Below, in pieces: positions 13,331 to 27,074 of a stretch of DNA of 64,000 nucleotides. The translations under genes were made by a program, and so were the position numbers. This DNA is from Pseudomonadota bacterium (GTDB lineage: Bacteria; Desulfobacterota; Desulfovibrionia; Desulfovibrionales; Desulfomicrobiaceae): contig JAHIQM010000016.1 in the NCBI GenBank assembly GCA_018902545.1, positions 310,001-374,000 on the forward strand, in the 5' to 3' direction. The notes below the pieces were generated by a model that was not told the DNA's origin, did no database searches, and saw nothing but the letters and a program-made list of their open reading frames with translations. Numbering within the stretch: position 1 is the first letter of the stretch; each line of letters starts with the position of its first letter.

Positions 13331-14632
13331 TCAGCCCCAGATTGATCCGTAAAAAAGACCCGAAAACGTGGCCATGACAATGACCAGCGCCACAAAGACG
13401 GCCGTCTTCTTCACGCCCATGATGCTGTTGATGACCAGCATGTTAGGCAGGCTGAGCGCCGGGCCGGCAAGAAGCAGGGCCAGGGCCGGGCCTTTGCCCA
13501 TGCCTGCGCCGATGAGGCCCTGCAGGATGGGCACCTCGGTCAGGGTGGCAAAATACATGAAGGCACCGGCAAAAGAGGCGAAGAAGTTGGCCCAGAGCGA
13601 ATTGCCGCCCACGGCCCCGGCCACCCATTCCGAGGGGATGAGACCTTCGTTGCCCACGCGGCCCAGCAGCGCCCCGGCGACGAGCACACCAAAGAGCAGC
13701 AGCGGCAGGATCTGCTTGGCAAAACCCCAGGAAGACGAAAACCAGTCCCCGACCTCGCCGTCGTCGGTACTGGTGAAGGCGGACAGCCCGATGACGCCGG
13801 CCGTGAAGGCCAGCAGGGGCATCTCGGGAAAAACGAGCGCGAGCAGAACGACGGGCACGGCCGCGACGCCGACCTTCCAGACCTTCACGCCGAACCAGGC
13901 CACGAGCATGGCACCCAGGGCTACGGAAAAAGCCGAGGTCAATATCCACTTGGCATTAAAGATGCCCGCCCACAGCCCGGAATCGGTCTGCGGAGCGCCC
14001 CAGTTGGCGAAAACAAGGATGCCGACCATGGATGCGAAATAGAGGGCGTTCTGCCACAGGGGGCGTTTCACTTCCTCTTCCAGCACGGCCATCTGCATGA
14101 CCTGGCGTTCGGCCTCTTCCTTGCGGAAAATAAAGTGCATCGAAAGGCCGATGATTACGCTGAAAATGATAGCCCCCACGGCGCGGGCGATGCCCATTTC
14201 AGGACCGAGAATACGCGCAGTCATGACGATGGCCAGCACGTTGATGGCCGGGCCGGAGTAGAGAAACGCGCAGGCCGGGCCAAGCCCTGCGCCCATGCGG
14301 TAGATACCGGCAAAAAGCGGCAGCACCGTGCAGGAGCAGACGGCCAGGATGGTGCCCGAAACCGAGGCCACGCCGTAGGCCATGACTTTTTTGGCCTTGG
14401 CTCCCAGGTACTTCATCACCGCCCCTTGGCTGACAAAGACCGAAATGGCTCCGGCAATGAAGAAGGCCGGAATCAGGCACAGCAGCACATGCTCCTGGGC
14501 GTACCATTTGACGAGGTGAAACGCTTCGAGAATGGCATTGTCAAAGCGCGGCAAACCGACGGGCAGATAAAAACAGGCCAGGAATACGACCACAATAATG
14601 GCCAGCGGCTTCCACTCTTCTTTCCAGTTCAT
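13331..14632 (-). CDS. ArsP/DUF318-type permease
   Basis: 433 residues, about ten hydrophobic segments. The family signature is present: CSCTVLPLFAGIYRMGAGLG (about residues 100-120) and LYSGPAINVLAI, repeated in diverged form near the C-terminus (LLLAGPALSLPNML). DUF318 permeases include ArsP, an exporter of trivalent organoarsenicals, but many members are unassigned. The place behind an ArsR with a CVC metal site and ahead of a thioredoxin-like gene supports export of an arsenic or thiol-metalloid species. The exact substrate is inference. Confidence 0.85.
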   Translation of the reverse strand: MNWKEEWKPLAIIVVVFLACFYLPVGLPRFDNAILEAFHLVKWYAQEHVLLCLIPAFFIAGAISVFVSQGAVMKYLGAKAKKVMAYGVASVSGTILAVCSCTVLPLFAGIYRMGAGLGPACAFLYSGPAINVLAIVMTARILGPEMGIARAVGAIIFSVIIGLSMHFIFRKEEAERQVMQMAVLEEEVKRPLWQNALYFASMVGILVFANWGAPQTDSGLWAGIFNAKWILTSAFSVALGAMLVAWFGVKVWKVGVAAVPVVLLALVFPEMPLLAFTAGVIGLSAFTSTDDGEVGDWFSSSWGFAKQILPLLLFGVLVAGALLGRVGNEGLIPSEWVAGAVGGNSLWANFFASFAGAFMYFATLTEVPILQGLIGAGMGKGPALALLLAGPALSLPNMLVINSIMGVKKTAVFVALVIVMATFSGLFYGSIWG

Positions 14633-14641
14633 GACAAACCC

Positions 14642-14986
14642 CTACTTGTTTTGTGGCCGGTCCGAGAGGCCGGTCATTGAAAGATGCTCCTTTGCGCGTG
14701 CGGACAGCACGGCCTCCACGCAATGGATGAAATTCAAAACGCACGGGACCTTGAGGCTGTAATACACCTGCTTACCTCTTTTGTCGTCCTGCACGATACC
14801 TGCCTGCTTAAGTACGGTCAGGTGCTTGGACACGGTGGAAAAATCCGCGTCGATGAGCTCCGCGAATTCGCAAACGCACTTCTCCCCCGATTCAAGGTGC
14901 TCCACCATCCACAATCGGGTCGGATGAGCCAGAGCCTTGAGCACTGCGGCCTTGGCCTCAAAGAATTTCTTGTCTTCAGCTTTCAT
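14642..14986 (-). CDS. arsR: ArsR-family repressor with CVC motif
   Basis: About 114 residues from ATG 14986 (MKAEDKKFFEAKA), a GGGG-containing Shine-Dalgarno upstream. Winged helix-turn-helix: ALAHPTRLWMVEHL, then DFSTVSKHLTVLKQAG (recognition helix), then the wing KRGKQVYYSL. CVC at the start of the sensing helix (EKCVCEFAELI) matches the As(III)-binding ELCVCDL motif of classical ArsR. It probably represses its own arsR-permease-trx operon. Its paralogue at 15153 is transcribed divergently. Confidence 0.88.
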   Translation of the reverse strand: MKAEDKKFFEAKAAVLKALAHPTRLWMVEHLESGEKCVCEFAELIDADFSTVSKHLTVLKQAGIVQDDKRGKQVYYSLKVPCVLNFIHCVEAVLSARAKEHLSMTGLSDRPQNK

Positions 14987-14997
14987 GTGTACCCCTT

Positions 14998-15011
14998 CAT
15001 TTGCACAAATG
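14998..15011. promoter_or_regulatory. Candidate ArsR operator (minus-strand unit)
   Basis: Inverted repeat CATTTG-CA-CAAATG (6-bp arms) 12 bases upstream of the arsR start at 14986. Its position over the leader suits a repressor site for that unit. No -10/-35 pair was assigned. Confidence 0.4.
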
Positions 15012-15100
15012 ACCAAATATGCAAGCTTGTCGGGTTCGTCAATAGCAAAACACGAATTTGGCGATATTTTTCATTTCTGACGAAATTACACGGAAAATAA

Positions 15101-15135
15101 TTGACGCGGGAAACGCTTGGCAATATTGCCAAGCG
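15101..15135 (+). promoter_or_regulatory. Promoter with a perfect 22-bp palindromic operator
   Basis: TTGACG (15101-15106) with a 17-bp spacer to TATTGC (15124-15129) forms a plausible sigma-70 promoter for the arsR at 15153. The perfect palindrome CGCTTGGCAATATTGCCAAGCG (15114-15135, broken here as CGCTTGGCAAT and its complement) covers the -10 region, so a bound dimer would block RNA polymerase. I take it as the operator of the adjacent ArsR protein. Confidence 0.65.
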
Positions 15136-15152
15136 AAAATTCGAGGACAACC

Positions 15153-15473
15153 ATGCTCATGCATTTGCCCCCCACCCGGGAAGACTTTGAGGCCCGCGCC
15201 CGGGTCATGAAGGCCCTGGCCCACCCGACAAGGCTCATGATGATCGAGGAGCTTTCGCGCGGCGAGCGCTGCGTGCGCGACTTGCGCGATCTCGCGGACT
15301 GCGACCTGTCCACGGTCTCAAAGCACCTCTCGCTCCTCAAAGACGCGGGCATGGTGGAGGACGAGAAACGCGGCAAGCAGGTCTACTACCGTCTGCGCGT
15401 GCCCTGTGTGCTGAATTTCTTTCACTGCCTGGACTCGGTGCTCACCGCCAGGGACAGGCTGACAGGCCTTTGA
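15153..15473 (+). CDS. ArsR-family repressor (second, divergent)
   Basis: About 106 residues from ATG 15153 (MLMHLPPTREDFE), GAGG upstream. It is close in sequence to the ArsR at 14986 (ALAHPTRLMMIEEL, STVSKHLSLLKDAGMVEDEKRGKQVYY), but the sensing motif is CVRDL rather than CVC, so only one of the two cysteines remains; others are C-terminal (PCVLNFFHC). It may sense a different ligand. It heads a plus-strand unit with thioredoxin-like genes and ccdA. Its last codons and stop lie within a long inverted-repeat element. Confidence 0.85.
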   Translation: MLMHLPPTREDFEARARVMKALAHPTRLMMIEELSRGERCVRDLRDLADCDLSTVSKHLSLLKDAGMVEDEKRGKQVYYRLRVPCVLNFFHCLDSVLTARDRLTGL

Positions 15474-15587
15474 AAAACGGCGATCTGCTGCGTCAGCGAA
15501 TAAATCCAGACCGCTTATGTATTCGCAATACACCGAACGTCCTGGATTTTTTCGCTTCCTTGCATCTCACCATTTTTGAAAGGCCTG
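15463..15587. repeat. Long imperfect inverted-repeat element
   Basis: Arms of about 46 bases (15463-15509 and 15542-15587) begin CAGGCCTTT and end ATCCAG in both copies when one is reverse-complemented, with scattered mismatches. The centre contains TATTCGCAATAC. The transcript would fold into a long hairpin. The left arm supplies the last codons and stop of the arsR gene. It looks like a dispersed, MITE-like or REP-type element; other copies would have to be sought in the genome. Confidence 0.65.
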
Positions 15588-15672
15588 CAAATTAGAATTT
15601 TTTATGTCAGTCATGTGTAGACTGATTCTTGGCCTAAAGGCCAATCAAACTTCAACCGTTTACGGAGCTGTC

Positions 15673-15909
15673 ATGAAAAAAGTTCACGTCATGGGCCCTG
15701 GCTGCCCCAAGTGCACCGAGACCTTCAAGATCGTCGAAACGGCCATTGCTGAAACCGGCGTGGAAGCAAGCCTCGAAAAAGTCACGGACTTCACCGAGAT
15801 CGCCAAATTCGGCGTGTTCACCACCCCTGCCGTGGCCGTGGATGGCACGGTCAAGGTCATGGGCAAGGTGCCCAAGAAGGCCGACGTAGTGGCCTGGCTG
15901 ACCGCCTAG
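15673..15909 (+). CDS. Small thioredoxin-like protein (CPKC)
   Basis: 78 residues from ATG 15673 (MKKVHVMGPGCPKC). Same minimal fold as the protein at 13067: CPKC active site, helix, then VFTTPAVAVDG with a probable cis-proline. It is cytoplasmic, as there is no signal peptide. It lies after the arsR at 15153 and before a periplasmic thioredoxin and CcdA, so it may be the cytosolic electron donor or thiol carrier of that chain. Confidence 0.85.
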   Translation: MKKVHVMGPGCPKCTETFKIVETAIAETGVEASLEKVTDFTEIAKFGVFTTPAVAVDGTVKVMGKVPKKADVVAWLTA

Positions 15910-16026
15910 CACCTCCCGATCACCGCGCATCTTTGTTTTCCGGACTGATTCCGGCCCGATTCCGACCAGGATGCGCCGCCTTGAACAACCCGATCCCAAA
16001 TGGTCCCTTTCACCGAGGTTTGTTGC

Positions 16027-16413
16027 ATGAAAATCCTTCGCCTTCTCCTCACCATTGCGTTCCTGGCCACGGCTTCGCAGGCCCTGGCCGCGCCTTCACC
16101 GCTCATTTCCGGTGACCCCCAGGAAGTCCCCCTCAAGGGCATGGTCACCATGGTTGATATCGGGGCCAAGGCCTGCCTCCCCTGCAAGATGATGATCCCG
16201 ATCATTGAATCTCTGTCCGAAGAATACGAGGGCCGGGCCGGCATCGTATTCATTGATGTCTGGAAAAACCCGAATGAAACTGAAAAATTCGGCGTCAGGG
16301 TCATCCCGACCCAGATCTTCTATGACAAGGATGGCAAAGAGGTCATGCGCCATGAAGGCTATATTTCCAAAGAAGACATCATCAAAATTCTGACCAAGCT
16401 GGGAGTTGAGTGA
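16027..16413 (+). CDS. Periplasmic thioredoxin-like protein
   Basis: 128 residues from ATG 16027 (MKILRLLLTIAFLATA), with a signal peptide ending near ALAA. The mature domain has the active site CLPC (GAKACLPCKMM), a helix, FIDVWKNP, and VIPTQIFYDKDG with the cis-proline, like TlpA/thioredoxin proteins. It probably reduces disulfides or metalloid-thiol adducts in the periplasm, with electrons from the CcdA-like protein encoded directly after it (stop and start overlap, TGATG). Confidence 0.88.
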   Translation: MKILRLLLTIAFLATASQALAAPSPLISGDPQEVPLKGMVTMVDIGAKACLPCKMMIPIIESLSEEYEGRAGIVFIDVWKNPNETEKFGVRVIPTQIFYDKDGKEVMRHEGYISKEDIIKILTKLGVE

Positions 16414-17117
16414 TGGACCAGTTTCTGATCCTCATCCACCAGTGGATGGGGTCCGGACTGGCCTTGGCGGCTCTGGGCTGCTTCTTGTGGGGGATGGTCA
16501 GCGTGCTCTTCAGCCCCTGTCACCTGGCCTCCATCCCCCTGATCGTGGGCTATGTGGCCGGGCAGGACAAACTGGTGGAAGGACGGCAGGCCGCGCTCTA
16601 CGCGGGCCTCTTCACCTTTGGCCTGTTCCTGACCATCGCCGCCATCGGCGTGATCTGCGCCCTGCTTGGCCGGATGCTCGGAGACGTGGGCCCCTACTGG
16701 ACCATCGTCGTCGGGCTCATCCTGTTGTGGGTGGCCATGGACATGCTGGGGGTGTCCAAGTGCTCCATGGGCGGCAACCTCATGGGCCGCTTCAAACTGC
16801 GCGGCATGAGCGGGGCCTTTTTGCTCGGCCTGGCCTACGGAATCCTGTCGGGCTCCTGCACTTTTGGCTTCATCGCGCCCATCCTGGCCATCATCACGGT
16901 GCAGGAAAAGATCATGACCGGCATCATGCTCATCGTCCTCTTCGGCCTTGGGCACTGCATCCCCATCGTCATCGCTGGCAGCTCCACCGCCCTGGTGCGC
17001 CGCCTCATGGCCAACGCCTCCTGGCAGCGCGGCGGCACGGCTTTCCGCCGCATTGCCGGAATCCTCATTGGTCTCATGGGCGTCTACTTCATCGCCCGCC
17101 CGTTCCTGCCCGTCTGA
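16413..17117 (+). CDS. CcdA/DsbD-type transmembrane thiol transporter
   Basis: About 234 residues, six membrane helices. CcdA proteins carry electrons from cytosolic thioredoxin to periplasmic thioredoxins through two membrane cysteines. Here one is in FSPCHLASIPLIVGY and the other in LSGSCTFGFIAPIL, at the expected pseudo-symmetric positions. The preceding gene encodes its likely periplasmic partner. The stop codon lies inside the first unit of a 14-bp tandem array. GTG 16410 is an alternative start. Confidence 0.9.
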   Translation: MDQFLILIHQWMGSGLALAALGCFLWGMVSVLFSPCHLASIPLIVGYVAGQDKLVEGRQAALYAGLFTFGLFLTIAAIGVICALLGRMLGDVGPYWTIVVGLILLWVAMDMLGVSKCSMGGNLMGRFKLRGMSGAFLLGLAYGILSGSCTFGFIAPILAIITVQEKIMTGIMLIVLFGLGHCIPIVIAGSSTALVRRLMANASWQRGGTAFRRIAGILIGLMGVYFIARPFLPV

Positions 17118-17233
17118 ACAGCCTGGCCTGAACATCCCGGCCTGAACATCCTGGCCTGAACATCCTGGCCTGAACATCCTGGCCTGAACATCCTGGCCTG
17201 AACATCCTGGCCTGAACATCCCGACCTGAAAAG
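17114..17233. repeat. Tandem array of eight 14-bp units
   Basis: Units of CTGAACATCCTGGC start at 17114, 17128, 17142, 17156, 17170, 17184, 17198 and 17212, with a partial ninth unit at 17226. Units 3-7 are identical; units 1, 2 and 8 differ by one or two bases. The first unit contains the ccdA stop codon (TGA 17115-17117). The array ends directly before a terminator hairpin. It looks like a slippage-prone minisatellite in the 3' untranslated region. Confidence 0.95.
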
Positions 17234-17264
17234 ATCTTGTCTTTCATTGGACAAGATTTTTTTT
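17234..17264 (+). terminator. Rho-independent terminator after ccdA
   Basis: Perfect 8-bp stem (ATCTTGTC 17234-17241, GACAAGAT 17250-17257), 8-base loop and a run of eight T (17257-17264). It separates the arsR-trx-ccdA unit from the respiratory operon promoter that begins five bases later. Confidence 0.9.
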
Positions 17265-17268
17265 CGCA

Positions 17269-17296
17269 TTGACATATCCACCTATACGGATATGAA
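17269..17296 (+). promoter_or_regulatory. Promoter/operator of the molybdoenzyme operon
   Basis: TTGACA (17269-17274), 16-bp spacer, TATGAA (17291-17296). An inverted repeat CATATCC (17273-17279) - 8 bp - GGATATG (17288-17294) overlaps both hexamers. The same hexamers, arms and spacing recur at 25035-25062 ahead of the arsR that heads the acr3-arsC cluster. I infer that this ArsR represses both promoters. Confidence 0.7.
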
Positions 17297-17623
17297 AGAA
17301 TAATGTTTGGATTCGAACCTTCGGCTAAACGCCGGATTTCCATCTCCGCCAACACGTTGGCGTCCAAGAAAGTTACCTTTTTTTCTCAAAAAGATAACCC
17401 CTCCTATACATCAGCCACACCTCCTCGCAACGCATTGTCGTTAGCGCACACAAAGCAAAACACTCTTCAAAAATACAAAATCAATAAGCAGTTCCTGAAT
17501 CCATTTTTTTTGGATATGGACCTTACTATCCCCCATCGACCAAATCAAAGGAGGGTTTTCACAGCGCCACAAACATAATCTCCCGCCATCGAATCCCAGC
17601 GCAACTCAACGGAGGAGAATACA
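17297..17623 (+). other. Long untranslated leader of the molybdoenzyme operon
   Basis: About 330 bases, richer in A and T than the flanks. It contains an inverted repeat CGCCAAC-AC-GTTGGCG at 17347-17362, a possible second regulator site or RNA hairpin. A 91-codon open frame from 17303 has no ribosome-binding site and looks non-coding. The GGAGGAG site for the first gene lies at the 3' end. Confidence 0.5.
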
Positions 17624-18373
17624 ATGAGGATCCTGCCCAAGGAAGACTTGCTGGTGCGCATGCAGCGCGATCTCGCCCGCTCCCTGGCCGGCGATCATGC
17701 GTCCATCAAATGGGCCATGGTCATCGACCTGGCCAAATGCGTCGGCTGCCATGCCTGCACCGTGGCCTGCGTGGCCGAGAACAAACTTCCGCCCGGCGTG
17801 GTCTACCGCCCGGTGACGGAAGAAGAAATCGGCACCTACCCCAACGTTCGTCGTCGGTTCGTGCCCCGGCCCTGCCTGCAGTGCCAGAACCCACCCTGCG
17901 TCAAGGTCTGTCCGGTGACGGCCACCTACAAGGACGCCCAAGGCATCACCGTCATGGACTACGACCGCTGCATCGGCTGCCGCTACTGTCTGGTGGCCTG
18001 TCCCTACGCGGCCAGGACCTCGGATTTCGGCGAGTGGTACACCAAGGGCACGCCCGAAGAACCGGGCAAGATCGTCGGCAGAAACGCCTGCGCCGACAGC
18101 TATGAGCGGCAACCGGCCATGGAATACGGCAAAGAATGGCCCGAAAGGGGACGCAGCTCGCCCGTCGGCAACGCCCGAAAATGCCATTTCTGCAAGCACC
18201 GCCTGGCTGAGGGCATGCTCCCGGCCTGTGTGACCACCTGTATCGGCCGCGCCACCTTTTTCGGCAACCGCAACGACCCGGAAAGCCTCATCTCGGAACT
18301 CCTGGCCGACCCGCGGGTCTTTGTCCTCAAGCCGGAACTGACCACCAAACCGGCCGTGTACTACCTGAAGTAA
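17624..18373 (+). CDS. Four-cluster ferredoxin subunit of a molybdopterin respiratory reductase
   Basis: 249 residues, Psr/Ttr/ArrB-like electron-transfer subunit with four [4Fe-4S] cysteine groups: [11 protein letters not shown] (about residue 39), [26 protein letters not shown] and [20 protein letters not shown]. It has no Tat signal, so it is probably carried out with the catalytic subunit. It would pass electrons between the NrfD quinone site and the molybdoenzyme. It is the first gene of the operon, preceded by a good GGAGGAG site; the next gene starts 9 bases after its stop. Confidence 0.9.
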
Positions 18374-18382
18374 GGAGGCCCC

Positions 18383-19648
18383 ATGAAATACAAATACTTC
18401 ATACCGCTGCTCATCCTGGCCCTGGCCGGCCTGGCCGTCGGGGCCTTCGGACTGGTGGACAGACTTCAGCACGGCCTGAACCCCACGGCCCTTGGTTCCT
18501 ACATCCCCTGGGGGCTGTGGGTCGCTTTTTACCTGCTCTTTCTGGGTCTTTCCGCCGGGGCGTTCCTGGTGACCATCATGACCTATGTCCTGGGCATGAA
18601 ACAGTTCGAACACATCGGTCCGCTCTCGGCCTTCGTGGTGCTGGTGGCGCTGATCTGCGAGGTGCAGTTCATCCTGCTCGATCTGGGCCAGTGGCACCGC
18701 GCCCTGTACCAGTTCTTCCTCACCCCCAGCTTCACCTCGCTGTTGACCTGGATGTTTATCCTCTTCAACGCCATGCTCGTCATTTATGCCCTGAAAACAT
18801 TCTTCCTCATCCGCGGCGATCTGGTGCGCTGGTCCAAGGATCCAGAAAAGGGCGGCCTGCGCGGGCTCTACGGACTGCTGGCTTTCGGCAAGACGGAATA
18901 TACCAGCACCGACCGTGAAAAAGACATGCACAAGGTGCACATCCTGGCCAAGATCAGCCTACCCGTAGGGCTCATCTTCTACGGCACCAACGGCGCGTTT
19001 TTCGCGGTACTGCTCAGCAGGCCAGTCTGGAACAGCGCCATGACCCCGCTCTTGTTCGTGGTCGCCGCCCTGCTCTCCGGCGGCGCGCTCATCGCCTTTC
19101 TGACCTACATCTTCCGTCAGAAGGACCCGCTGAACCCTGACGGCCTGTGCTACGAGGACCGCATCTGCCTGGATCTGGGCAAGGTCATCCTCTTCCTCCT
19201 GGTCGTCTTCCTCGCGCTTGAAGGCATGCAGTTCTTCGTCGGCTATCAGACCGCCACCATCGCCGTGGTCACCAGCCTCGATCTCATCGTCAAGGGCCCG
19301 CACTGGTGGGTGTTCTGGATCGTACACATCCTGATCGGCAGCCTTATCCCGATGCTGCTCCTCATCTTCCGCGCAGGCGACGTGAAATCCGTAGCCCTGG
19401 CCTGTTTCCTGATCTTCATCACCTTCGCTGCCGTGCGCTACAACTTCGTCATCCCGGATTTGGCCGTGTACAAGCTCGAAGGCCTGGAGGCCACCTTCGC
19501 CCACCCGCGCCTGCGCACCGACTATGTGCCCAACCTGAACGAATGGCTGGTCAGTCTGTGGATCATCTCCACCGGCCTGGTGGTCATGCTCCTGGGCACG
19601 CGCTTTCTGCCCATCGTCACCGAGAACGGAGGTACCGACCATGCCTAG
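18383..19648 (+). CDS. NrfD-type quinone-interacting membrane anchor
   Basis: 421 residues, eight to nine membrane helices, NrfD/PsrC family. These subunits exchange electrons and often protons with the menaquinone pool. Helix motifs such as GSYIPWGLWVAFYLLFLG and FILLDLGQWHRAL are typical. The RBS AAGGAGG lies just upstream. It overlaps the catalytic-subunit gene by 8 bases, so all three subunits are probably made in fixed ratio. Confidence 0.9.
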   Translation: MKYKYFIPLLILALAGLAVGAFGLVDRLQHGLNPTALGSYIPWGLWVAFYLLFLGLSAGAFLVTIMTYVLGMKQFEHIGPLSAFVVLVALICEVQFILLDLGQWHRALYQFFLTPSFTSLLTWMFILFNAMLVIYALKTFFLIRGDLVRWSKDPEKGGLRGLYGLLAFGKTEYTSTDREKDMHKVHILAKISLPVGLIFYGTNGAFFAVLLSRPVWNSAMTPLLFVVAALLSGGALIAFLTYIFRQKDPLNPDGLCYEDRICLDLGKVILFLLVVFLALEGMQFFVGYQTATIAVVTSLDLIVKGPHWWVFWIVHILIGSLIPMLLLIFRAGDVKSVALACFLIFITFAAVRYNFVIPDLAVYKLEGLEATFAHPRLRTDYVPNLNEWLVSLWIISTGLVVMLLGTRFLPIVTENGGTDHA

Positions 19649-22600
19649 CAAGGCCATCAATAAAACCGCCGCCCCGGCTGCCGGAGGGGTGGATCGCAGA
19701 GACTTCCTCAAATACTCGGCCCTCATCGGAGGTTCCGTGGCCGCCTGCGGAGCCATGGGCCCCTTCCTCGGCACGGCGAAAGAAGCCAACGCCGCCATCC
19801 TGGGCAATTCGGCGTTTGTCCACCACAAGCCCGAGAACCAGCTCTATTCCTGCTGCCAGCAGTGCAACACCAACTGCGGCATCAAGGTCAAGCTGCGCGA
19901 CGGCGTGATAGAAAAAATCGAGGGCAACCCCTACAACCCCTTCAACATGACGCCGCAGATTCCGGAGAACACGCCCATCGCCGAAGCGGCCCTGGTCGAA
20001 GGGTCTCTCTGCCCCAAAGGACACGCTGGCATCCAGACCCTGTACGACCCCTATCGTATCGTGCAGGTTTTGAAACGCACGGACAAACGCGGCGCAAACA
20101 AGTGGAAGACGGTCCCCTTTGACCAGGCAGTGCAGGAGATCGTCGAGGGCGGGGACCTCTTCGGCGAAGGCCAGGTGGAAGGTTTGAAGGATATCGTGAC
20201 CCTGCGCGACCCGAAAATCGCCACGGCCCTGGCCGACGACGCCAAGCTCGTAGCCGGCAAAAAGATGCCCATCGAGGATTTCAAGGCCAAGCACGCAGAC
20301 AACCTGCACTACCTCATCGACCCCGACCACCCGGACCTGGGGCCCAAAAACAACCAGTTCTGCTTCAACTGGGGCCGCATCAAGAACGGCCGCGGCGACA
20401 TGATCAAGGACTTCTTCAGCAAGGCCTGCGGCTCCGTGAACTACCACGGCCACACCACGGTCTGCCAGGGCTCCCTGTACTTCGCCGGAAAGGCCATGAG
20501 CGACCAGTTCGACGAGGGCAAGTTCACGGGCGGCAGCAAGTTCTACTGGCAGGCGGACACGGGCAACGCCGAGTTCTGCATCTTCGTCGGTGCCAATCCC
20601 TTCGAGGCCAACTACGGGCCGCCCCTGCGCGTGCAGAAAATCACGGAAGGGACCGTCGACGGCCGCATGAAGATCGCGGTCATCGACCCGCGCTGCTCCA
20701 AGACCGCGTCACGGGCCTGGAAATGGCTCCCCGTGGAACCGGTCAACGGCGTCCCGGCCATCGCCATGGCCCTGATTCAGTGGATCATCGACAACAAGCG
20801 CCATGACGCCCGCTACCTGGCCAACGCCAACAAGGCCGCTTCAAAAAAGGACAACGAGCCAACCTGGAGCCAGGCCGCCTGGCTGGTCAAGATCGACGAC
20901 TACGGACAGCCCGGAAAATACTTGCGCGGCTCGGACCTTGGCCTGGAGAAGGAGATCCGGCCGGCCAAAAAAGAAGGGGAGTGGGAGTTCGACGCCTTCG
21001 CGACCCTGTTTGAAGGCCAGCCCGTATTCTTCGACCCCAATGACGAGGCCAACCCCGTGGAGGGCGAACTGTTCGTCGACACGGTGCTGGAGAACGGCAT
21101 GCGGGTGAAGAGCGTGCTGCAGATCATCATGGAAGAGGCCAAGGCCAAATCCATCGAGGAATGGTGTACCATTGCGGGCGTGCCTGCCGACGATGTTGTC
21201 GAGATCGCCAAGGAATTCACCAGTCATGGCAAGAAGGCCGTGGCCGACCTGCACCGCGGCGTGTCCCAGCACACGGGCGGTTTCTACAACGTCTGCGCCT
21301 GGTACGTGGTCAACGCCCTCATCGGCAACACCGGCTGGCAGGGCGGACTTTGCAAGAACACGGCCTACAATCATACCGGCAACCGCCCAGGCAAGCCCTT
21401 TGACATGACCAAGCAGTACAAGGGCGGGATCAAGAACTTTGGCGTCAACATCATCCGCCACAGCGCGGTCTACGACAAGACCACCCTGTTCGAGGGCTTC
21501 CCGGCCAAACGCACCTGGTACCCCTTCGCCACAGACATCTACCAGGAGGTCATCCCCAGCATCGGGGATATGTACCCCTACCAGGTCAAGGCCCTGCTCC
21601 TGTACATGGGTGCGCCCAACTATTCCCTGCCCTCGGGGCACACCCTGGCGGAAATCCTGACCGACACCAAGAAGCTGCCTCTCTTCATCGCCTCGGACAT
21701 CATCATCGGCGAGACGAGCATGTACGCAGACTACATCTTCCCCGACACCACCTACCTGGAACGCTGGGAATTCCCCGGCGCGCACCCTTCGGTGGCGCCC
21801 AAGATCTTCCCCATCCGCCAGCCCGTGGTCGCCCCGCTGACACCAAACGTCACGGTCTTTGGTGAAGAAATGCCCATGAACATGGAGTCCATGATCCTGG
21901 CCTTTGCCGAAAAACTGGGGGTGCCGGGCTACGGGGACAACGTCTTCGGGCCGGGCAAACACATGAAGCGCGAGGAGGACATGTATCTGCGTATGGTCGC
22001 CAATGCGGCCTTTGGTGACAAGGAGGACGGGTCGGACAAGGTGCCTGCGGCCGATGCCGAAGAGATCCGCATCTTCATCGAATCCAGGCGGCACCTGCCC
22101 AAGACCATGTTCGACGCGGACCGCTGGAAGGCCATCGTCGGCGAAGAACTCTGGCCGCACGTGGTCTACGTGCTGAACCGCGGGGGCCGCTTCCAGGGCT
22201 ACGCCGAGGCTTACAAGAACGAGCAGCTGGTCAACGCCTACAACAAGATGCTCGGCCTCTACTTCGAAAACATGGTCACCACCAAGCACTCCATGACCGG
22301 CAAGCCCTACGTGCCGTATGCGACCTACATGCCCGGCCCCACGGATTGCGCGGGCAACCTCATCGACGACCGGGCGGCGGGCTTTGACATGACGCTCATC
22401 ACCTACAAGTTCATCACCCAGACCAAGAGCCGAACCATCGGCAACTATTGGCTCAACGCCGTCTATCCGGAGAACTTCGTGGAAATCTCCACCAGTGATG
22501 CCCGGCGCATGAGCCTTCAAAACGGCGACATGGTGCGCATTGTTTCCGCCACCAATCCCGAAGGCGTCTGGGATCTTGGCAACGGCACCAAGGTGCCCAT

Positions 22601-22859
22601 GATCGGCAAGGTCAAGGCCATGGAAGGTATCCGCCCCGGCGTGGTCGCCTTCTCCCTTGGCCATGGGCACTGGGCCCAGGGCTCCATGCCCTTTGAAATC
22701 GACGGCAAAACCATCACCATGGACTCGCGCCGTTCCAAGGGCTTCCACGCCAACGCGGCCATGCGCGTGGATCCCATCCTCGGCAACACGACCTTGAGCG
22801 ACGTGGTCGGCGGCAGCGCCGTCTTCTACCAGAGCCAGGTCAAACTGGTTAAGGCGTAA
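19641..22859 (+). CDS. Tat-exported molybdopterin oxidoreductase (TtrA/PsrA/ArrA group)
   Basis: 1072 residues. A twin-arginine signal (RR at 19-20, DRRDFLKYSALIGG) sends it to the periplasm. Cysteines C72, C75, C79 and C124 (CQQCNTNC ... CPKG) bind the FS0 [4Fe-4S] cluster. C275 (TTVCQGS) is the likely molybdenum ligand, as in the polysulfide, thiosulfate, tetrathionate and arsenate reductases. At over 1000 residues it is closer in length to TtrA than to ArrA (about 850). The SQR-like gene downstream points to sulfur chemistry, while the ArsR-type operator points to arsenic. The substrate is unresolved; thioarsenate or polysulfide are worth testing. Confidence 0.85.
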   Translation: MPSKAINKTAAPAAGGVDRRDFLKYSALIGGSVAACGAMGPFLGTAKEANAAILGNSAFVHHKPENQLYSCCQQCNTNCGIKVKLRDGVIEKIEGNPYNPFNMTPQIPENTPIAEAALVEGSLCPKGHAGIQTLYDPYRIVQVLKRTDKRGANKWKTVPFDQAVQEIVEGGDLFGEGQVEGLKDIVTLRDPKIATALADDAKLVAGKKMPIEDFKAKHADNLHYLIDPDHPDLGPKNNQFCFNWGRIKNGRGDMIKDFFSKACGSVNYHGHTTVCQGSLYFAGKAMSDQFDEGKFTGGSKFYWQADTGNAEFCIFVGANPFEANYGPPLRVQKITEGTVDGRMKIAVIDPRCSKTASRAWKWLPVEPVNGVPAIAMALIQWIIDNKRHDARYLANANKAASKKDNEPTWSQAAWLVKIDDYGQPGKYLRGSDLGLEKEIRPAKKEGEWEFDAFATLFEGQPVFFDPNDEANPVEGELFVDTVLENGMRVKSVLQIIMEEAKAKSIEEWCTIAGVPADDVVEIAKEFTSHGKKAVADLHRGVSQHTGGFYNVCAWYVVNALIGNTGWQGGLCKNTAYNHTGNRPGKPFDMTKQYKGGIKNFGVNIIRHSAVYDKTTLFEGFPAKRTWYPFATDIYQEVIPSIGDMYPYQVKALLLYMGAPNYSLPSGHTLAEILTDTKKLPLFIASDIIIGETSMYADYIFPDTTYLERWEFPGAHPSVAPKIFPIRQPVVAPLTPNVTVFGEEMPMNMESMILAFAEKLGVPGYGDNVFGPGKHMKREEDMYLRMVANAAFGDKEDGSDKVPAADAEEIRIFIESRRHLPKTMFDADRWKAIVGEELWPHVVYVLNRGGRFQGYAEAYKNEQLVNAYNKMLGLYFENMVTTKHSMTGKPYVPYATYMPGPTDCAGNLIDDRAAGFDMTLITYKFITQTKSRTIGNYWLNAVYPENFVEISTSDARRMSLQNGDMVRIVSATNPEGVWDLGNGTKVPMIGKVKAMEGIRPGVVAFSLGHGHWAQGSMPFEIDGKTITMDSRRSKGFHANAAMRVDPILGNTTLSDVVGGSAVFYQSQVKLVKA

Positions 22860-22878
22860 CTCTCTGCCTCCCCCTCCC

Positions 22879-22910
22879 GGCGGCGGAAGCGAAGTCTTGC
22901 TTCCGCCGCC
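22879..22910 (+). other. Intercistronic hairpin
   Basis: Perfect 12-bp stem (GGCGGCGGAAGC / GCTTCCGCCGCC) with an 8-base loop. There is no T run, so it is more likely an mRNA-stabilising or processing hairpin than a full terminator. It lies between the molybdoenzyme gene and the SQR-like gene. Confidence 0.6.
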
Positions 22911-23003
22911 AACCTCTCACCTTCGACCAGGAGCCTCGCAGCAGCAATTCAACAACAAATCCCTACACGTCGCCATGACAGGCGAACACTCCGGAGGCAG
23001 CGT

Positions 23004-24263
23004 ATGCAAAAGATCGTCATCCTCGGCGCGGGAACCGCCGGCACCATGATGGCCAACAGGCTCTGTGAAAATCTGCGGACAGACATCGAGCAGAACAGAA
23101 TCAGCGTGACCATCGTGGATGAGGACCGCGTCCACATCTACCAGCCGGGCCTGCTCTTCCTGCCCTTTGGAGTGTACCGTTCCAAGGAGGATGTGCTCAA
23201 ACCCCGGGACGTGTTCCTCCCCCTTGAGGCCAAATTCATCGTCTCTAAAATCGAGAAGGTCGATCCCGACGCAAAGAAGGTCGTTTTGCGCACCGGCACC
23301 CTCGACTACGACCTGCTTATCATCGCCAGCGGCTCGCGCCTCGACCCCACGGAAAATGAAGGACTCCTCGGACCCAACTGGCAGAAATCCATTTTCGACT
23401 TCTACACCCTCGATGGGGCCATGAAACTCCAGCGCGCCCTGCGTTCCTTCAAAGGCGGCCGCCTGGTCCTCAATGTCGCCGAAATGCCCGTCAAATGCCC
23501 CGTCGCGCCGCCGGAGTTCGTCATGCTCGCGGACTGGTTCTTCCACGAGCGCGGCATGCGCGACAAGGTCGAGATCGTCTTCGCGACGCCCTTGAGCGGC
23601 CCTTTCACCAAGCCCCTGGCCTCCCAGACCCTCAAGTACGTGTGCGAAGAAAAGAACATCAAGATCGTGCCCGACTTCGTCCTGAGCCACGTGGACAACG
23701 AGCACAAACGCATCGTGGCCCACGACGGCCGCGAAGAGAACTTCGACCTGCTGGTCTCCATCCCGACCATGAAGGGCGCGCAGTTCATCATCGACTCGGA
23801 GATGGGCGACCCCCTGGGCTGGGTGCCCACGGACAACCACACCCTGCGCAGCAAGAACCACCCGGATATCTATGTCATCGGCGACGCCACCAACGTGCCC
23901 ACCTCCAAGGCCGGATCGGTGGCGCACTTCGAGAGCGAGATCCTCATCGAAAACATCCTGCGCCACCTTGACGGCCTCGAACCCCTGCCCAAGTTCGACG
24001 GACACTCCAACTGCTTCATCGAGTCCGGCTTCGGCAAGGCTCTGCTCATCGACTTCAACTACACGACCGAGCCGTTGCCCGGTAAATTCCCGCTGCCCGG
24101 CACAGGCCCCTTCACGTTGCTCAAGGAAACCAAGATGAACCACTACGGGAAGATGATGTTCCGCTGGGCCTACTGGCACCTGCTCTTAAAAGGCAAGGAT
24201 CTGCCCGTCTCCCCGTTTATGACCATGGCCGGCAAGGAAGTGCCCTATCCGGCCAAACCTTGA
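23004..24263 (+). CDS. Sulfide:quinone oxidoreductase-like flavoprotein
   Basis: 419 residues. The N-terminal FAD-binding motif is ILGAGTAG; a second dinucleotide motif region ends in the FAD-contact sequence DIYVIGDATNVP. Cysteines C165 (VKCPVAPPEF) and C337 (SNCFIESGFGK) match the redox-active pair of SQR; C214 is a third. SQR oxidises sulfide to polysulfide and reduces quinone at the membrane. Beside an NrfD/molybdoenzyme it could either feed polysulfide to that enzyme or act as a polysulfide carrier. GGAGG lies seven bases before the start. Confidence 0.85.
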   Translation: MQKIVILGAGTAGTMMANRLCENLRTDIEQNRISVTIVDEDRVHIYQPGLLFLPFGVYRSKEDVLKPRDVFLPLEAKFIVSKIEKVDPDAKKVVLRTGTLDYDLLIIASGSRLDPTENEGLLGPNWQKSIFDFYTLDGAMKLQRALRSFKGGRLVLNVAEMPVKCPVAPPEFVMLADWFFHERGMRDKVEIVFATPLSGPFTKPLASQTLKYVCEEKNIKIVPDFVLSHVDNEHKRIVAHDGREENFDLLVSIPTMKGAQFIIDSEMGDPLGWVPTDNHTLRSKNHPDIYVIGDATNVPTSKAGSVAHFESEILIENILRHLDGLEPLPKFDGHSNCFIESGFGKALLIDFNYTTEPLPGKFPLPGTGPFTLLKETKMNHYGKMMFRWAYWHLLLKGKDLPVSPFMTMAGKEVPYPAKP

Positions 24264-24276
24264 GCGGAGGTGAACC

Positions 24277-24885
24277 ATGAACGCGGAACAACATCTGGAA
24301 AAACTGGCCGCCCTGGAGCACAAACTCGACGCCGTGACAGCCATGACGCGGGAAATGGCGCGCAGTCACGAGATGACCCAGGATCTGTTCAAGGACCTGA
24401 ACATCGTCGGCAATGCCGCCATGTTCTCCCTGCAGGAAGAGCTGGAACTGGAGAACGTGCATGTGGACGGCCGGGAACTGCGGCAGCTCATGATCCTGTT
24501 CCTTAAAAACCTGCACAATTTCAACTACGCCCTGCGCCAGTTCGAGGCCCTGGCGGAGCTCGGCCAGGAGTCTTACGGCGCTATGCGCGGGATGCTCATG
24601 GACTACATCGAGCATGCCACGGTCTGGGAACAAAAAGGATATTTTCAGTCCGCCTCCAAAGCCGTGGAGATTTTGGCCCGGATGCACGAGTCCATGCCCC
24701 GGGACACGTTGGACCGCCTGGAGGCCTCGGCCCCGGAGATCGTCGGCCTCATGTCGGATCTGGCCGACCCCGGCCTGCTGCGCCAGGCCAGACAACTGCT
24801 CAAAATGCAGAAGTATCTCCTTCCGGCCCTGGCCCTGGCGTGGATCGTTCCGGTAGGACTTTTGGTACTTGTGCTCCTCAAATGA
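24277..24885 (+). CDS. Helical protein with C-terminal membrane anchor (DUF1641-like)
   Basis: 202 residues, almost entirely helical, with one hydrophobic C-terminal segment (residues about 182-201). The helix around DLFKDLNIVGNAAMFSLQEEL and the later SDLADPGLLRQARQLL recall DUF1641 proteins, which are commonly encoded beside SQR genes. It probably tethers or assists the SQR-like protein at the membrane. The start at 24277 has GGAGG upstream and lies 13 bases after the previous stop. The family assignment is tentative. Confidence 0.6.
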   Translation: MNAEQHLEKLAALEHKLDAVTAMTREMARSHEMTQDLFKDLNIVGNAAMFSLQEELELENVHVDGRELRQLMILFLKNLHNFNYALRQFEALAELGQESYGAMRGMLMDYIEHATVWEQKGYFQSASKAVEILARMHESMPRDTLDRLEASAPEIVGLMSDLADPGLLRQARQLLKMQKYLLPALALAWIVPVGLLVLVLLK

Positions 24886-24905
24886 GACAGACGCCCGATC
24901 AGGCA

Positions 24906-24948
24906 GGAAAGCGGCCCCCTTTCAACAGAGCGGCCGCTTTTCCTTTTT
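24906..24948 (+). terminator. Terminator of the molybdoenzyme operon
   Basis: AAAGCGGCC (24908-24916) pairs with GGCCGCTTT (24932-24940), followed by TTCCTTTTT. It closes the 17.6-24.9 kb operon before the arsR promoter. Confidence 0.75.
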
Positions 24949-25034
24949 GACGAACATCCGGTGATACAAACGCCGGAGCGCAATCCGGGCCGCCACATCA
25001 GACTTCAGTCATTGGTACTTGGCAAAAGAAGATA

Positions 25035-25062
25035 TTGACATATTCGTTCATGCGGATATGTT
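25035..25062 (+). promoter_or_regulatory. Promoter/operator of arsR-acr3-arsC
   Basis: TTGACA (25035-25040), 16-bp spacer, TATGTT (25057-25062). An inverted repeat CATATTC (25039-25045) - 8 bp - GGATATG (25054-25060) has one mismatch and matches in layout the site at 17269-17296. The start codon of arsR follows six bases after the -10, so the leader would be almost absent. The site is the probable autoregulatory operator. Confidence 0.7.
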
Positions 25063-25068
25063 CATGGC

Positions 25069-25416
25069 ATGGAACGCACCGCTGCTACGCTCAAAGCCCT
25101 GTCCGATCCGACCCGGCTGCGCATCGTCTCCCTGCTCCGGCATGGGGCGATGTGCGTTTGCGATCTGGTGGAAGCACTGCAGACACCGCAATCGAAAATT
25201 TCGCGACACCTCGCCTTTCTGAAGAATGCGGGCTGGGTCGCCTCGGAAAGAAGCGGCAAGTGGACGCATTACTCCCTGGCCGAGGAGGAGTCCTCCCTGC
25301 ACAAACACATGCTTGAGGTTCTCAAGACGGAACTTCCGCTCAACAGTGTCTGCGCGGATGACGACCAACGATTTTTTTTGTACCGCGACGCCAAGCCGTC
25401 GCATTCCTGTGACTGA
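25069..25416 (+). CDS. arsR: Arsenic-responsive repressor ArsR
   Basis: 115 residues. Winged helix-turn-helix with the classical As(III) site: C29 and C31 in MCVCDLVEAL, followed by SKISRHLAFLKNAG as the recognition helix and a wing at RSGKWTHYSL. It lies ahead of acr3 and arsC, so sensing of arsenite or antimonite is very likely. The start is very close to its promoter, with no clear Shine-Dalgarno; initiation on a very short leader is possible. By its matching operator it probably also controls the molybdoenzyme operon. Confidence 0.92.
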   Translation: MERTAATLKALSDPTRLRIVSLLRHGAMCVCDLVEALQTPQSKISRHLAFLKNAGWVASERSGKWTHYSLAEEESSLHKHMLEVLKTELPLNSVCADDDQRFFLYRDAKPSHSCD

Positions 25417-25494: not shown

Positions 25495-26550
25495 ATGACC
25501 AAAGAAAATACCGCCGGAATCAGCTTTTTTGAGAAGAACCTGACGCTCTGGGTCGCCCTGTGCATGGTCGCGGGCGTGCTGATCGGCAAGTTCCTGCCCT
25601 TCGTTCCGGAATTCCTCAGCAAGTTCGAATACGCCAAGGTCTCCATTCCCATCGCGGTGCTGATCTGGTTCATGATTTACCCGATGATGATGAAGGTTGA
25701 TTTCGCCAGCGTGAAGAACGTTGGCAGGAACCCCACCGGCCTGTACCTGACCTGGATCGTCAACTGGCTGATCAAGCCCTTCACCATGTTCGCCATCGCG
25801 GGCTTTTTCTTTTTCGTGGTCTTCGCGCCCTTCATCGAGCCCGAGCTGGCCAGGGATTATCTGGCCGGGGCCATCCTGCTCGGGGCCGCGCCGTGCACGG
25901 CCATGGTCTTCGTCTGGAGCCACCTGACCAGGGGCAACCCGGCCTACACCGTGGTCCAGGTGGCCACCAATGATCTCATCATCCTGGTCGCCTTCACCCC
26001 CATCGTAGCCTTCCTGCTTGGCGTCAGCGGCGTGAGCATCCCCTGGAACACCCTGTTCATTTCGGTGGTCCTGTTCGTGGTCATCCCCCTGGTCGGAGGC
26101 GTGTTGACCCGCAAGCACGTCATAAAAAGCAAGGGGCTGGACTATTTCAACAACACTTTCATCCCCAAGTTCAACAACGCCACCATCGTCGGCCTGCTGC
26201 TGACCCTGGTGCTCATCTTCTCCTTCCAGGGCGAGGTCATTCTCGGCAACCCGCTGCACATCGTGCTCATCGCCATCCCGCTCATTATCCAGACCGTGCT
26301 CATCTTCTTCCTCGCCTACCTGACGGCCAGAAAATTGAAGCTGTGCCACAGCATCGCCGCTCCGGCGGGCATGATCGGCGCGTCCAATTTCTTCGAACTG
26401 TCCGTGGCCGTGGCCATCACCCTGTTCGGGGCCTCTTCCCCGGTGGTCCTTGCCACCATCGTCGGCGTGCTGGTAGAAGTCCCGGTCATGCTGGCCCTGG
26501 TCAAATACGCCAACCGCACCGCAAGCTGGTTCCCGGACCAGCGAAACTGA
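25495..26550 (+). CDS. acr3: Arsenite efflux permease Acr3
   Basis: 351 residues, ten membrane helices, ACR3 family: the conserved cysteine lies in GAAPCTAMVFVWSHLTRG, and NLIILVAF-type and GASNFFELSVAVAITLFG stretches match the family. It exports arsenite using the proton motive force. RBS AAGGAG upstream. It is second in the arsR-acr3-arsC unit, 78 bases after arsR. Confidence 0.95.
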   Translation: MTKENTAGISFFEKNLTLWVALCMVAGVLIGKFLPFVPEFLSKFEYAKVSIPIAVLIWFMIYPMMMKVDFASVKNVGRNPTGLYLTWIVNWLIKPFTMFAIAGFFFFVVFAPFIEPELARDYLAGAILLGAAPCTAMVFVWSHLTRGNPAYTVVQVATNDLIILVAFTPIVAFLLGVSGVSIPWNTLFISVVLFVVIPLVGGVLTRKHVIKSKGLDYFNNTFIPKFNNATIVGLLLTLVLIFSFQGEVILGNPLHIVLIAIPLIIQTVLIFFLAYLTARKLKLCHSIAAPAGMIGASNFFELSVAVAITLFGASSPVVLATIVGVLVEVPVMLALVKYANRTASWFPDQRN

Positions 26551-26654: not shown

Positions 26655-27074
26655 ATGAAAATACTCTTCCTCTGCACAGGCAACTCCTGCCGCAGTCAAA
26701 TGGCTGAAGGTTGGGCCAAGCATCTGAAAAAAGGCGAAATCGAGGCAGTTTCCGCCGGTATCGAACGACACGGCATGAACCCCTATGCGGTCAAGGTCAT
26801 GCAGGAGGCGGGGGTGGACATGAGCGCCCACACTTCCAAGACCCTGGACGACCTGCCAAGCCTGGAATTTGACGCCGTGGTCACGCTCTGCGGGCACGCA
26901 AGCGAAACCTGCCCGTTCTTTCCCGGACCGGTCCGCAGAGTACACAAGGGTTTTGACGATCCGCCGAGCCTTTGCGCCCAGATGACGGAAGAGGAAGAGA
27001 TTCTGTCCGTTTATCGCCGGGTCCGCGATGAAATCCGCGCATTCGTTGAAAGCTTGCCCGGAAGTCTTGAATAA
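26655..27074 (+). CDS. arsC: Thioredoxin-coupled arsenate reductase
   Basis: 139 residues, low-molecular-weight phosphatase fold. The P-loop CX5R is C7TGNSCR13. A redox pair C79 and C86 ([11 protein letters not shown]) matches Cys82/Cys89 of Staphylococcus ArsC, which marks the thioredoxin-dependent class. A conserved Asp-Pro lies in KGFDDPP. It reduces arsenate to arsenite for export by Acr3. RBS AAGGAG upstream. Terminated by a strong hairpin. Confidence 0.93.

Follow-up and report, generated by a model that had tools for sequence, protein, structure and literature searches.

Several arsenate respirers are described as lacking arrA, the gene for the catalytic subunit of the known respiratory arsenate reductase ArrAB (PMC2500031), and Desulfomicrobium strain Ben-RB is reported to respire arsenate with no ArrA found by PCR (Macy 2000, via PMC9751042). 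Enzymes of the tetrathionate reductase (Ttr) type have already been proposed as arsenate reductases: non-Arr arsenate respiration by such an enzyme was suggested for Pyrobaculum (PMC9751042, PMC5492636), a tetrathionate reductase homologue of Anaeromyxobacter sp. PSR-1 was proposed as a dissimilatory As(V) reductase (Muramatsu et al. 2020, via PMC9751629), and the Ttr-type enzyme of Melioribacter roseus is described with an ArrT(X)SR-type sensor upstream, an arsRPCB locus nearby and transcripts that rise with arsenate (PMC5492636). In this work, we analyse a molybdoenzyme operon in a 64,000-nucleotide stretch (the window) of contig JAHIQM010000016.1 from Desulfomicrobium, a sulfate-reducing genus. 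What appears to be new is the predicted operator of the repressor ArsR before such an operon in a sulfate reducer, of which we found no description in the literature searched, a search that mostly excluded subscription papers and is not proof of absence.

Compared by description, the locus resembles the PSR-1 homologue, which PMC9751629 describes as lacking bona fide Ttr function, in that a TtrA-type molybdoenzyme is tied to arsenate, and differs from what is described there in its predicted control by an ArsR operator. With Melioribacter it shares a Ttr-type enzyme, nearby ars genes and, here in relatives, ArrX-type sensors, whereas control is two-component there and would be exerted directly by ArsR here. 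Like ArrAB, the complex pairs a periplasmic molybdoenzyme, exported by twin-arginine translocation (Tat), with an iron–sulfur (FeS) subunit, and some ArrAB members have an ArrX sensor; unlike ArrAB, its genes are in BCA rather than CAB or AB order (PMC2500031), and its catalytic subunit scores 107.6 bits against the ArrA model NF041714, far from the cut-off of 1600. By description, the locus also fits the ‘Unk’ clade of Duval 2008, of unknown function and nearest to Arr, which likewise has BCA order and a Tat signal on A, without the extra Tat signal that Ttr-type enzymes carry on B (PMC2500031).

A shared promoter and operator before the operon and arsR

Two sites in the window, one upstream of the molybdoenzyme operon and one upstream of arsR, agree in hexamers, palindrome arms and spacing, as a preliminary description of this DNA had claimed. 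At the operon, TTGACA (17269-17274) and TATGAA (17291-17296) enclose or overlap arms at 17273-17279 and 17288-17294; at arsR, TTGACA (25035-25040) and TATGTT (25057-25062) do the same with arms at 25039-25045 and 25054-25060. Both sites have 16 bp between the hexamers, so a repressor sitting there would cover the promoter. CATATYC-N8-GGATATG occurs in the window at these two places only and in none of 100 dinucleotide shuffles of it, and CATATYCN8GRATATG matches the whole genome (3,705,538 bases) at two places with no mismatch, none with one and 42 with two.

We then compared 16 Desulfomicrobium genomes, 15 of which carry the short palindrome with at most one mismatch, at 45 places in total. 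From the flanks of those places where the spacer is conserved we built a full 25-bp pattern, TTGACWTATNYNNNYATNCGNATAT, which has 15 matches in the 16 genomes, none of them with a mismatch, and not one when reversed as a control. Twelve of these full sites lie immediately upstream of arsR, acr3 or arsR-arsC, three lie upstream of the molybdoenzyme operon (genomes G000, G055 and G079) and none lies elsewhere, so the many unrelated promoters that the preliminary description had allowed for did not appear. Because all 15 precede ars genes or the molybdoenzyme operon, the palindrome is most likely the ArsR operator of the genus; the same context, 15 of 15 in 16 congeneric genomes, rules out an accident of coding sequence.

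In the congener G055, the arsR that follows the perfect operator, between the molybdoenzyme operon and acr3, is truncated: its first half is missing, and with it the CVC motif and the helix-turn-helix region (L046 12850-13060). An intact arsR with the same operator is found on another contig, and ArsR control in this genome would need to act in trans, given that the N-terminal part of the local gene is gone. In three other loci of congeners (L153, L154 and L158), a near-identical site directly follows ccdA and drives acr3, which makes it plausible that the operon was inserted behind an existing ars promoter. The operator could on these grounds be a relic of that promoter without functional ArsR control, but we consider this very improbable: three congeners whose enzymes are 93% identical retain the site, the same operon came under ArsR control independently in other lineages, and a former ars promoter would remain ArsR-controlled. 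A further parallel with ArrAB is that, in Shewanella ANA-3, arr is reportedly under ArsR control.

The tie extends to other lineages of the order. A match at 1e-100 or better is present in 20 of 199 genomes of the order, and we fetched the surroundings of the 19 others besides the one under study. A copy of at least 61% identity is present in 17 of the 20 matching genomes; with G025 and G070 set aside at contig ends, ArsR, ArsP, Acr3 or ArsC is encoded nearby in 14 of the 15 evaluable ones, and not at G110. No ars gene is found in the stretches around the more distant matches of G193 and G197 (44% identity) and G109 (30%). In four loci of one genus (L053, L056, L058 and L059), the operon begins with a CVC-type arsR, upstream of which lies TTAATCCG-N6-CGGATTAA, either intact or decayed. 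In another genus (L052, L054 and L055), arsR-acr3 is divergent from the operon, with ATAT-N12-ATAT palindromes upstream of the FeS gene and, in L054 and L055, AAATTCG...CGAATAC upstream of arsR. The ArsR proteins adjoining the operon (L052-L056, L058 and L059) all carry CVCDL, as does that encoded at 25069. The link between operon and arsenic drawn in the preliminary description is thereby strengthened, with a CVC-type ArsR tied to the operon in two further lineages and in different gene arrangements. On an enzyme tree of 39 rows (16 labelled as adjacent to ars genes, 16 as not adjacent and seven unlabelled), the minimum number of changes is five for ars adjacency and two for ArsR control.

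Three features of the transcripts and intergenic regions are recorded here. The arsR start codon at 25069 lies only 6 bp past the -10 hexamer (window 25057-25071), so translation of arsR may start on an mRNA with little or no leader. The predicted leader of the molybdoenzyme operon is about 320 nt long and contains inverted repeats (17297-17623), and an Rfam search of this leader of 17624 for a riboswitch, at E values up to 1, gave no match. Between ccdA and its terminator (17117-17230), a 15-bp unit (CATCCTGGCCTGAA-like) is repeated head to tail about eight times, an array not seen in L046 and L045.

The operon, its enzyme and its neighbours

As had been proposed, the site at 17269 precedes genes for a molybdoenzyme, an NrfD-type subunit and a sulfide:quinone reductase (SQR), and that at 25035 precedes an arsR with a CVC motif followed by acr3 and arsC, although the ArsC falls below its curated cut-off (Table 1). 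The gene product is, by its subunits, a periplasmic FeS–NrfD–molybdopterin complex.

Table 1. Coordinates of the promoter/operator sites and genes in the window, with the basis of each assignment.
Feature	Position	Strand	Basis
Promoter with embedded ArsR-type operator, upstream of molybdoenzyme operon	17269..17296	+	Pattern scans
Promoter with embedded ArsR-type operator, upstream of arsR	25035..25062	+	Pattern scans
FeS subunit (B), four-cluster, without Tat signal	17624..18373	+	Profile matches, signal check
NrfD-type membrane quinol subunit (C)	18383..19648	+	PF03916
Molybdopterin catalytic subunit (A), 1072 aa, Tat signal, TtrA/ArrA superfamily, below both curated cut-offs	19641..22859	+	
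Type III sulfide:quinone reductase	23004..24263	+	NF049943, 611 bits, cut-off 525
202-aa protein, C-terminal hydrophobic segment	24277..24885	+	No accepted Pfam/NCBIfam match
ArsR, CVCDL motif	25069..25416	+	NF033788, 96.8 bits, cut-off 55
Acr3 arsenite efflux permease	25495..26550	+	TIGR00832, 374.5 bits, cut-off 282.8
ArsC, thioredoxin type, below curated cut-off	26655..27074	+	TIGR02691, 155 bits, cut-off 174
Terminator-like hairpin and T run, between ccdA and molybdoenzyme operon	~17229..17258	+	By eye and inverted-repeat listing
Flanking cassette: ArsP-type permease and ArsR (-), second ArsR, two thioredoxins, CcdA (+)	13331..17117		

The complex shares its B-C-A gene order with TtrBCA, which is also the closest characterised profile, and departs from it in three respects. 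The catalytic subunit reaches 461 bits against the TtrA model NF011567, whose cut-off is 1750; in profile comparisons it gives E values of 6e-131 with TtrA-type sequences and 1e-47 with ArrA-like sequences that are themselves below the curated ArrA cut-off, compared to 5.5e-36 between the two profiles. The B subunit (17624) has no Tat signal, whereas the true TtrB of L175 has one. Finally, the Arg, His, Ser/Thr and Tyr positions that we take to be arsenate contacts of ArrA align, by MAFFT and by profile alignment, to R246, H271, T272 (Ser in ArrA) and Y302, of which the Arg and the Tyr are both missing from TtrA-type rows. A search for residues tracking ars linkage in a 37-row clade gave only two weak and uninformative columns (537 and 898). 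None of the 16 Desulfomicrobium genomes encodes an ArrA over the cut-off.

Other assignments were considered and dropped. A selenocysteine in the catalytic subunit was discarded, the two ‘1 TGA’ flags falling outside the stretches read, and the SQR has HSNC where the selenoprotein form carries HxxU (PMC13188914), in an open frame without TGA. The product of 24277-24885 had been labelled DUF1641-like, a label that is not supported, as the protein has no DUF1641 match in Pfam and only a sub-threshold one to RACo_middle. The ArsR of 25069 is not TsoR, the sulfur-linked ArsR model, to which it scores 46 bits against a cut-off of 115. The flanking cassette (13331-17117) recurs beside acr3 in congeners; its ArsR genes encode CVC (14642) and CVR (15117), and it has no copy of the 25-bp operator.

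Arsenic neighbourhoods and sensors across the phylum

To place the enzyme in its wider family, we took 395 genomes sampled evenly across the phylum, of which 77 have a match at 1e-60 and 49, counting our own, a copy of at least 45% identity. We followed 39 of the 48 other family genomes and dropped nine, mostly fragments or low scorers (G395, G324, G466, G301, G504, G510, G575, G239 and G496). The acr3 gene, single-copy in nearly every genome, is at most 26 kb from the enzyme in 14 of the 39 genomes outside the order (0.60 expected, P 2e-16), a limit set after the distances had been seen and applied to genomes that are not independent, with split contigs counted as misses. Within 11 kb, it is found in eight of the 39 (0.25 expected, P 1e-10) and, inside the order, in 10 of 20 (0.14 expected). 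By comparison, it lies within 26 kb in 2 of 28 control genomes that have only 30-43% TtrA-like relatives, both of one genus, with G496 set aside for its 52% identical near copy. Acr3 over the cut-off is encoded in 54 of 59 family genomes and 13 of 29 control genomes (Fisher P 1e-6, computed with 55 of 59), and an ArrA-like match at 1e-150 is present in 13 of 247 genomes.

Side observations complement this survey. In two genomes of one genus, G439 and G567, acr3 has a neighbour about 4 kb away that encodes a TtrA-like enzyme (33-35%) from another clade. Relatives of around 50% identity (L113-L115, L117, L118 and L120-L122) have no query-detectable NrfD gene between B and A. Outside the order (L097 5878-7594, L099, L104 and L112), genes for FmdE-like, molybdopterin-binding-domain and MoaA-like radical SAM proteins often trail the operon, which suggests a dedicated cofactor supply.

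Some relatives have an arsenic sensor of another kind. In L047 (genome G020, of the same genus as G025), the enzyme is 83% identical, the SQR and 202-aa neighbour are the same and an ars cluster follows; upstream of the operon are genes for a periplasmic binding protein and for a HAMP-GAF-sigma54 activator. The binding protein matches the solved ArrX at 2.6e-55, AioX at about 1e-44 and phosphonate-binding proteins at 3e-14, and has a Cys at the pocket position (within a FICSGPY-type motif in relatives), which PMC5908839 describes as absent from PhnD. According to the same source, such sensors bind the oxyanion used by their molybdoenzyme, and ArrX binds arsenate. Among 63 family loci examined, 51 have at least 5.5 kb of upstream sequence and 12 have less; an ArrX-type gene precedes the operon in 18 of the 51, plus a weak case in L133. 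Inside the order, 6 of 20 genomes have one at 1e-25. As ArrX-type genes are absent from the ArsR-controlled genomes of the order, bar a 37% match located far from the operon in G172, ArsR control looks like a replacement of the ArrX-type input. With a self-devised scoring scheme, and as a side observation, good sigma-54 promoter matches (shuffle frequency at most 0.03) lie upstream of 12 of 18 ArrX-type loci and 1 of 12 ArsR-type ones.

The sensors also bear on the metalloid concerned. ArsR may respond to Sb(III) as well, and the natural acceptor could be antimonate, with the enzyme akin to AnrA, which is reported as the antimonate reductase of Geobacter and Desulfuribacillus (via PMC13284237); one plasmid with the distant BCA trio described below comes from strain Sb-9, Lengshuijiang. 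Against this, the nearest solved sensor, ArrX, binds arsenate, and antimonite was among the ligands tested in PMC5908839, with no hit reported; we therefore give antimonate little credence.

A distant pairing is found on enterobacterial plasmids (Citrobacter, Enterobacter and Salmonella; L136, L176, L178 and L179), where a 31%-identical BCA trio is divergent from arsR-arsDABC in all four records inspected. These four are drawn from nine records that share at least 99% identity, out of 72 that match. On the enzyme tree this trio joins the TtrA side on a long branch, which suggests that a TtrBCA-type complex was paired with ars genes a second time, independently.

Proposed function and significance

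The regulatory case is strong and the function moderately supported: on balance, the operon is probably an ArsR target whose product is an ArrA-independent reductase of an arsenic oxyanion, arsenate or thioarsenate. The sites, their genus specificity, the gene order, the arsenic neighbourhoods and the sensor homology are read directly from sequence, and we infer ArsR binding, arsenite induction, the catalytic direction, the substrate and the role of the SQR. In the mechanism that we propose, ArsR (25069) would occupy the palindrome spanning -35 to -10 at both promoters until As(III) binds to the CVC motif, whereupon the repressor would leave the DNA and both operons would be expressed. The Tat-exported complex would draw menaquinol electrons through NrfD and reduce a pentavalent arsenic oxyanion in the periplasm, most likely arsenate and possibly thioarsenate, as a functional counterpart of ArrAB with TtrBCA-type architecture. 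Its As(III) product would keep its own operon on and be exported by Acr3, and the SQR could pass sulfide electrons to the same quinone pool.

The same complex could in principle run oxidatively and detoxify periplasmic As(III), given that ArrA/ArxA-type enzymes can work in both directions and that As(III) induction would suit an oxidase. The menaquinone of sulfate reducers is, however, too reducing to accept arsenite electrons, and no high-potential partner is evident, which leaves an arsenite oxidase as the least credible of the alternatives.

Several points weigh against an arsenic-oxyanion reductase. The profile nearest to the catalytic subunit is TtrA, not ArrA; a Lys that we likewise presume to contact arsenate in ArrA is not conserved; and its structure prediction (10 sequences, mean predicted local distance difference test score of 45.5) is too poor for a fold search. 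The SQR is equally compatible with sulfur chemistry. Most of the 39 relatives outside the order have no ars gene within about 8 kb, as judged with window-derived queries. On a plasmid of Pseudomonas sp. BYT-5 (L177 4125-11087), a TtrBCA-type operon is followed by genes for an ArsR-family protein without CVC, YeeE/YedE and OsmC, and the lack of CVC and the presence of YeeE/YedE indicate that not all such pairings are arsenic-related. In Melioribacter, the statistically clear arsenate responder was a psr/phs gene and not ttrA (PMC5492636), and a TtrBCA-type protein of Desulfolithobacter was made only in thiosulfate disproportionation (PMC9751629). This last protein may belong to the present family, in which case some members would probably have a sulfur role.

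A rival reading is a sulfur enzyme under arsenic control, which would reduce tetrathionate, thiosulfate or polysulfide on ArsR induction and yield sulfide that precipitates or thiolates arsenic; it would fit the TtrA-like profile, the specificity of the Desulfolithobacter protein for thiosulfate disproportionation and the SQR, which is encoded in this operon and also close to the relatives in L047, L050 and L104. We nevertheless consider it unlikely, as sulfate reducers make sulfide anyway, the B subunit has no Tat signal, unlike that of the Ttr clade, ArrX-type sensors stand upstream of relatives and acr3 is close to the enzyme throughout the phylum. Thus, where the preliminary description left arsenate or thioarsenate respiration beside sulfur respiration, the arsenic context across the phylum and the ArrX-type sensors lead us to favour the former.

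More tentatively, and with less confidence than for the operon itself, the clade could form a second, widespread class of respiratory arsenic-oxyanion reductases in Desulfobacterota, commoner there than ArrA (49 of 395 genomes compared to 13 of 247). During its evolution the clade would have switched inputs between an ArrX-type system, in which a periplasmic receptor for arsenate works with a sigma-54 activator, and the arsenite repressor ArsR in the cytoplasm, and the pairing with SQR in Desulfomicrobium and Desulfonatronum would make a short sulfide-to-arsenate electron chain.

The enzyme is a good candidate for the missing arsenate-respiration enzyme of bacteria without the known one, and the operon offers a concrete gene candidate, with a built-in predicted arsenite switch, for arsenate respiration without arrA. 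If the clade does consist of arsenate reductases, surveys that rely on arrA only would overlook a large part of the potential for arsenic mobilisation in sulfate-reducing sediments.

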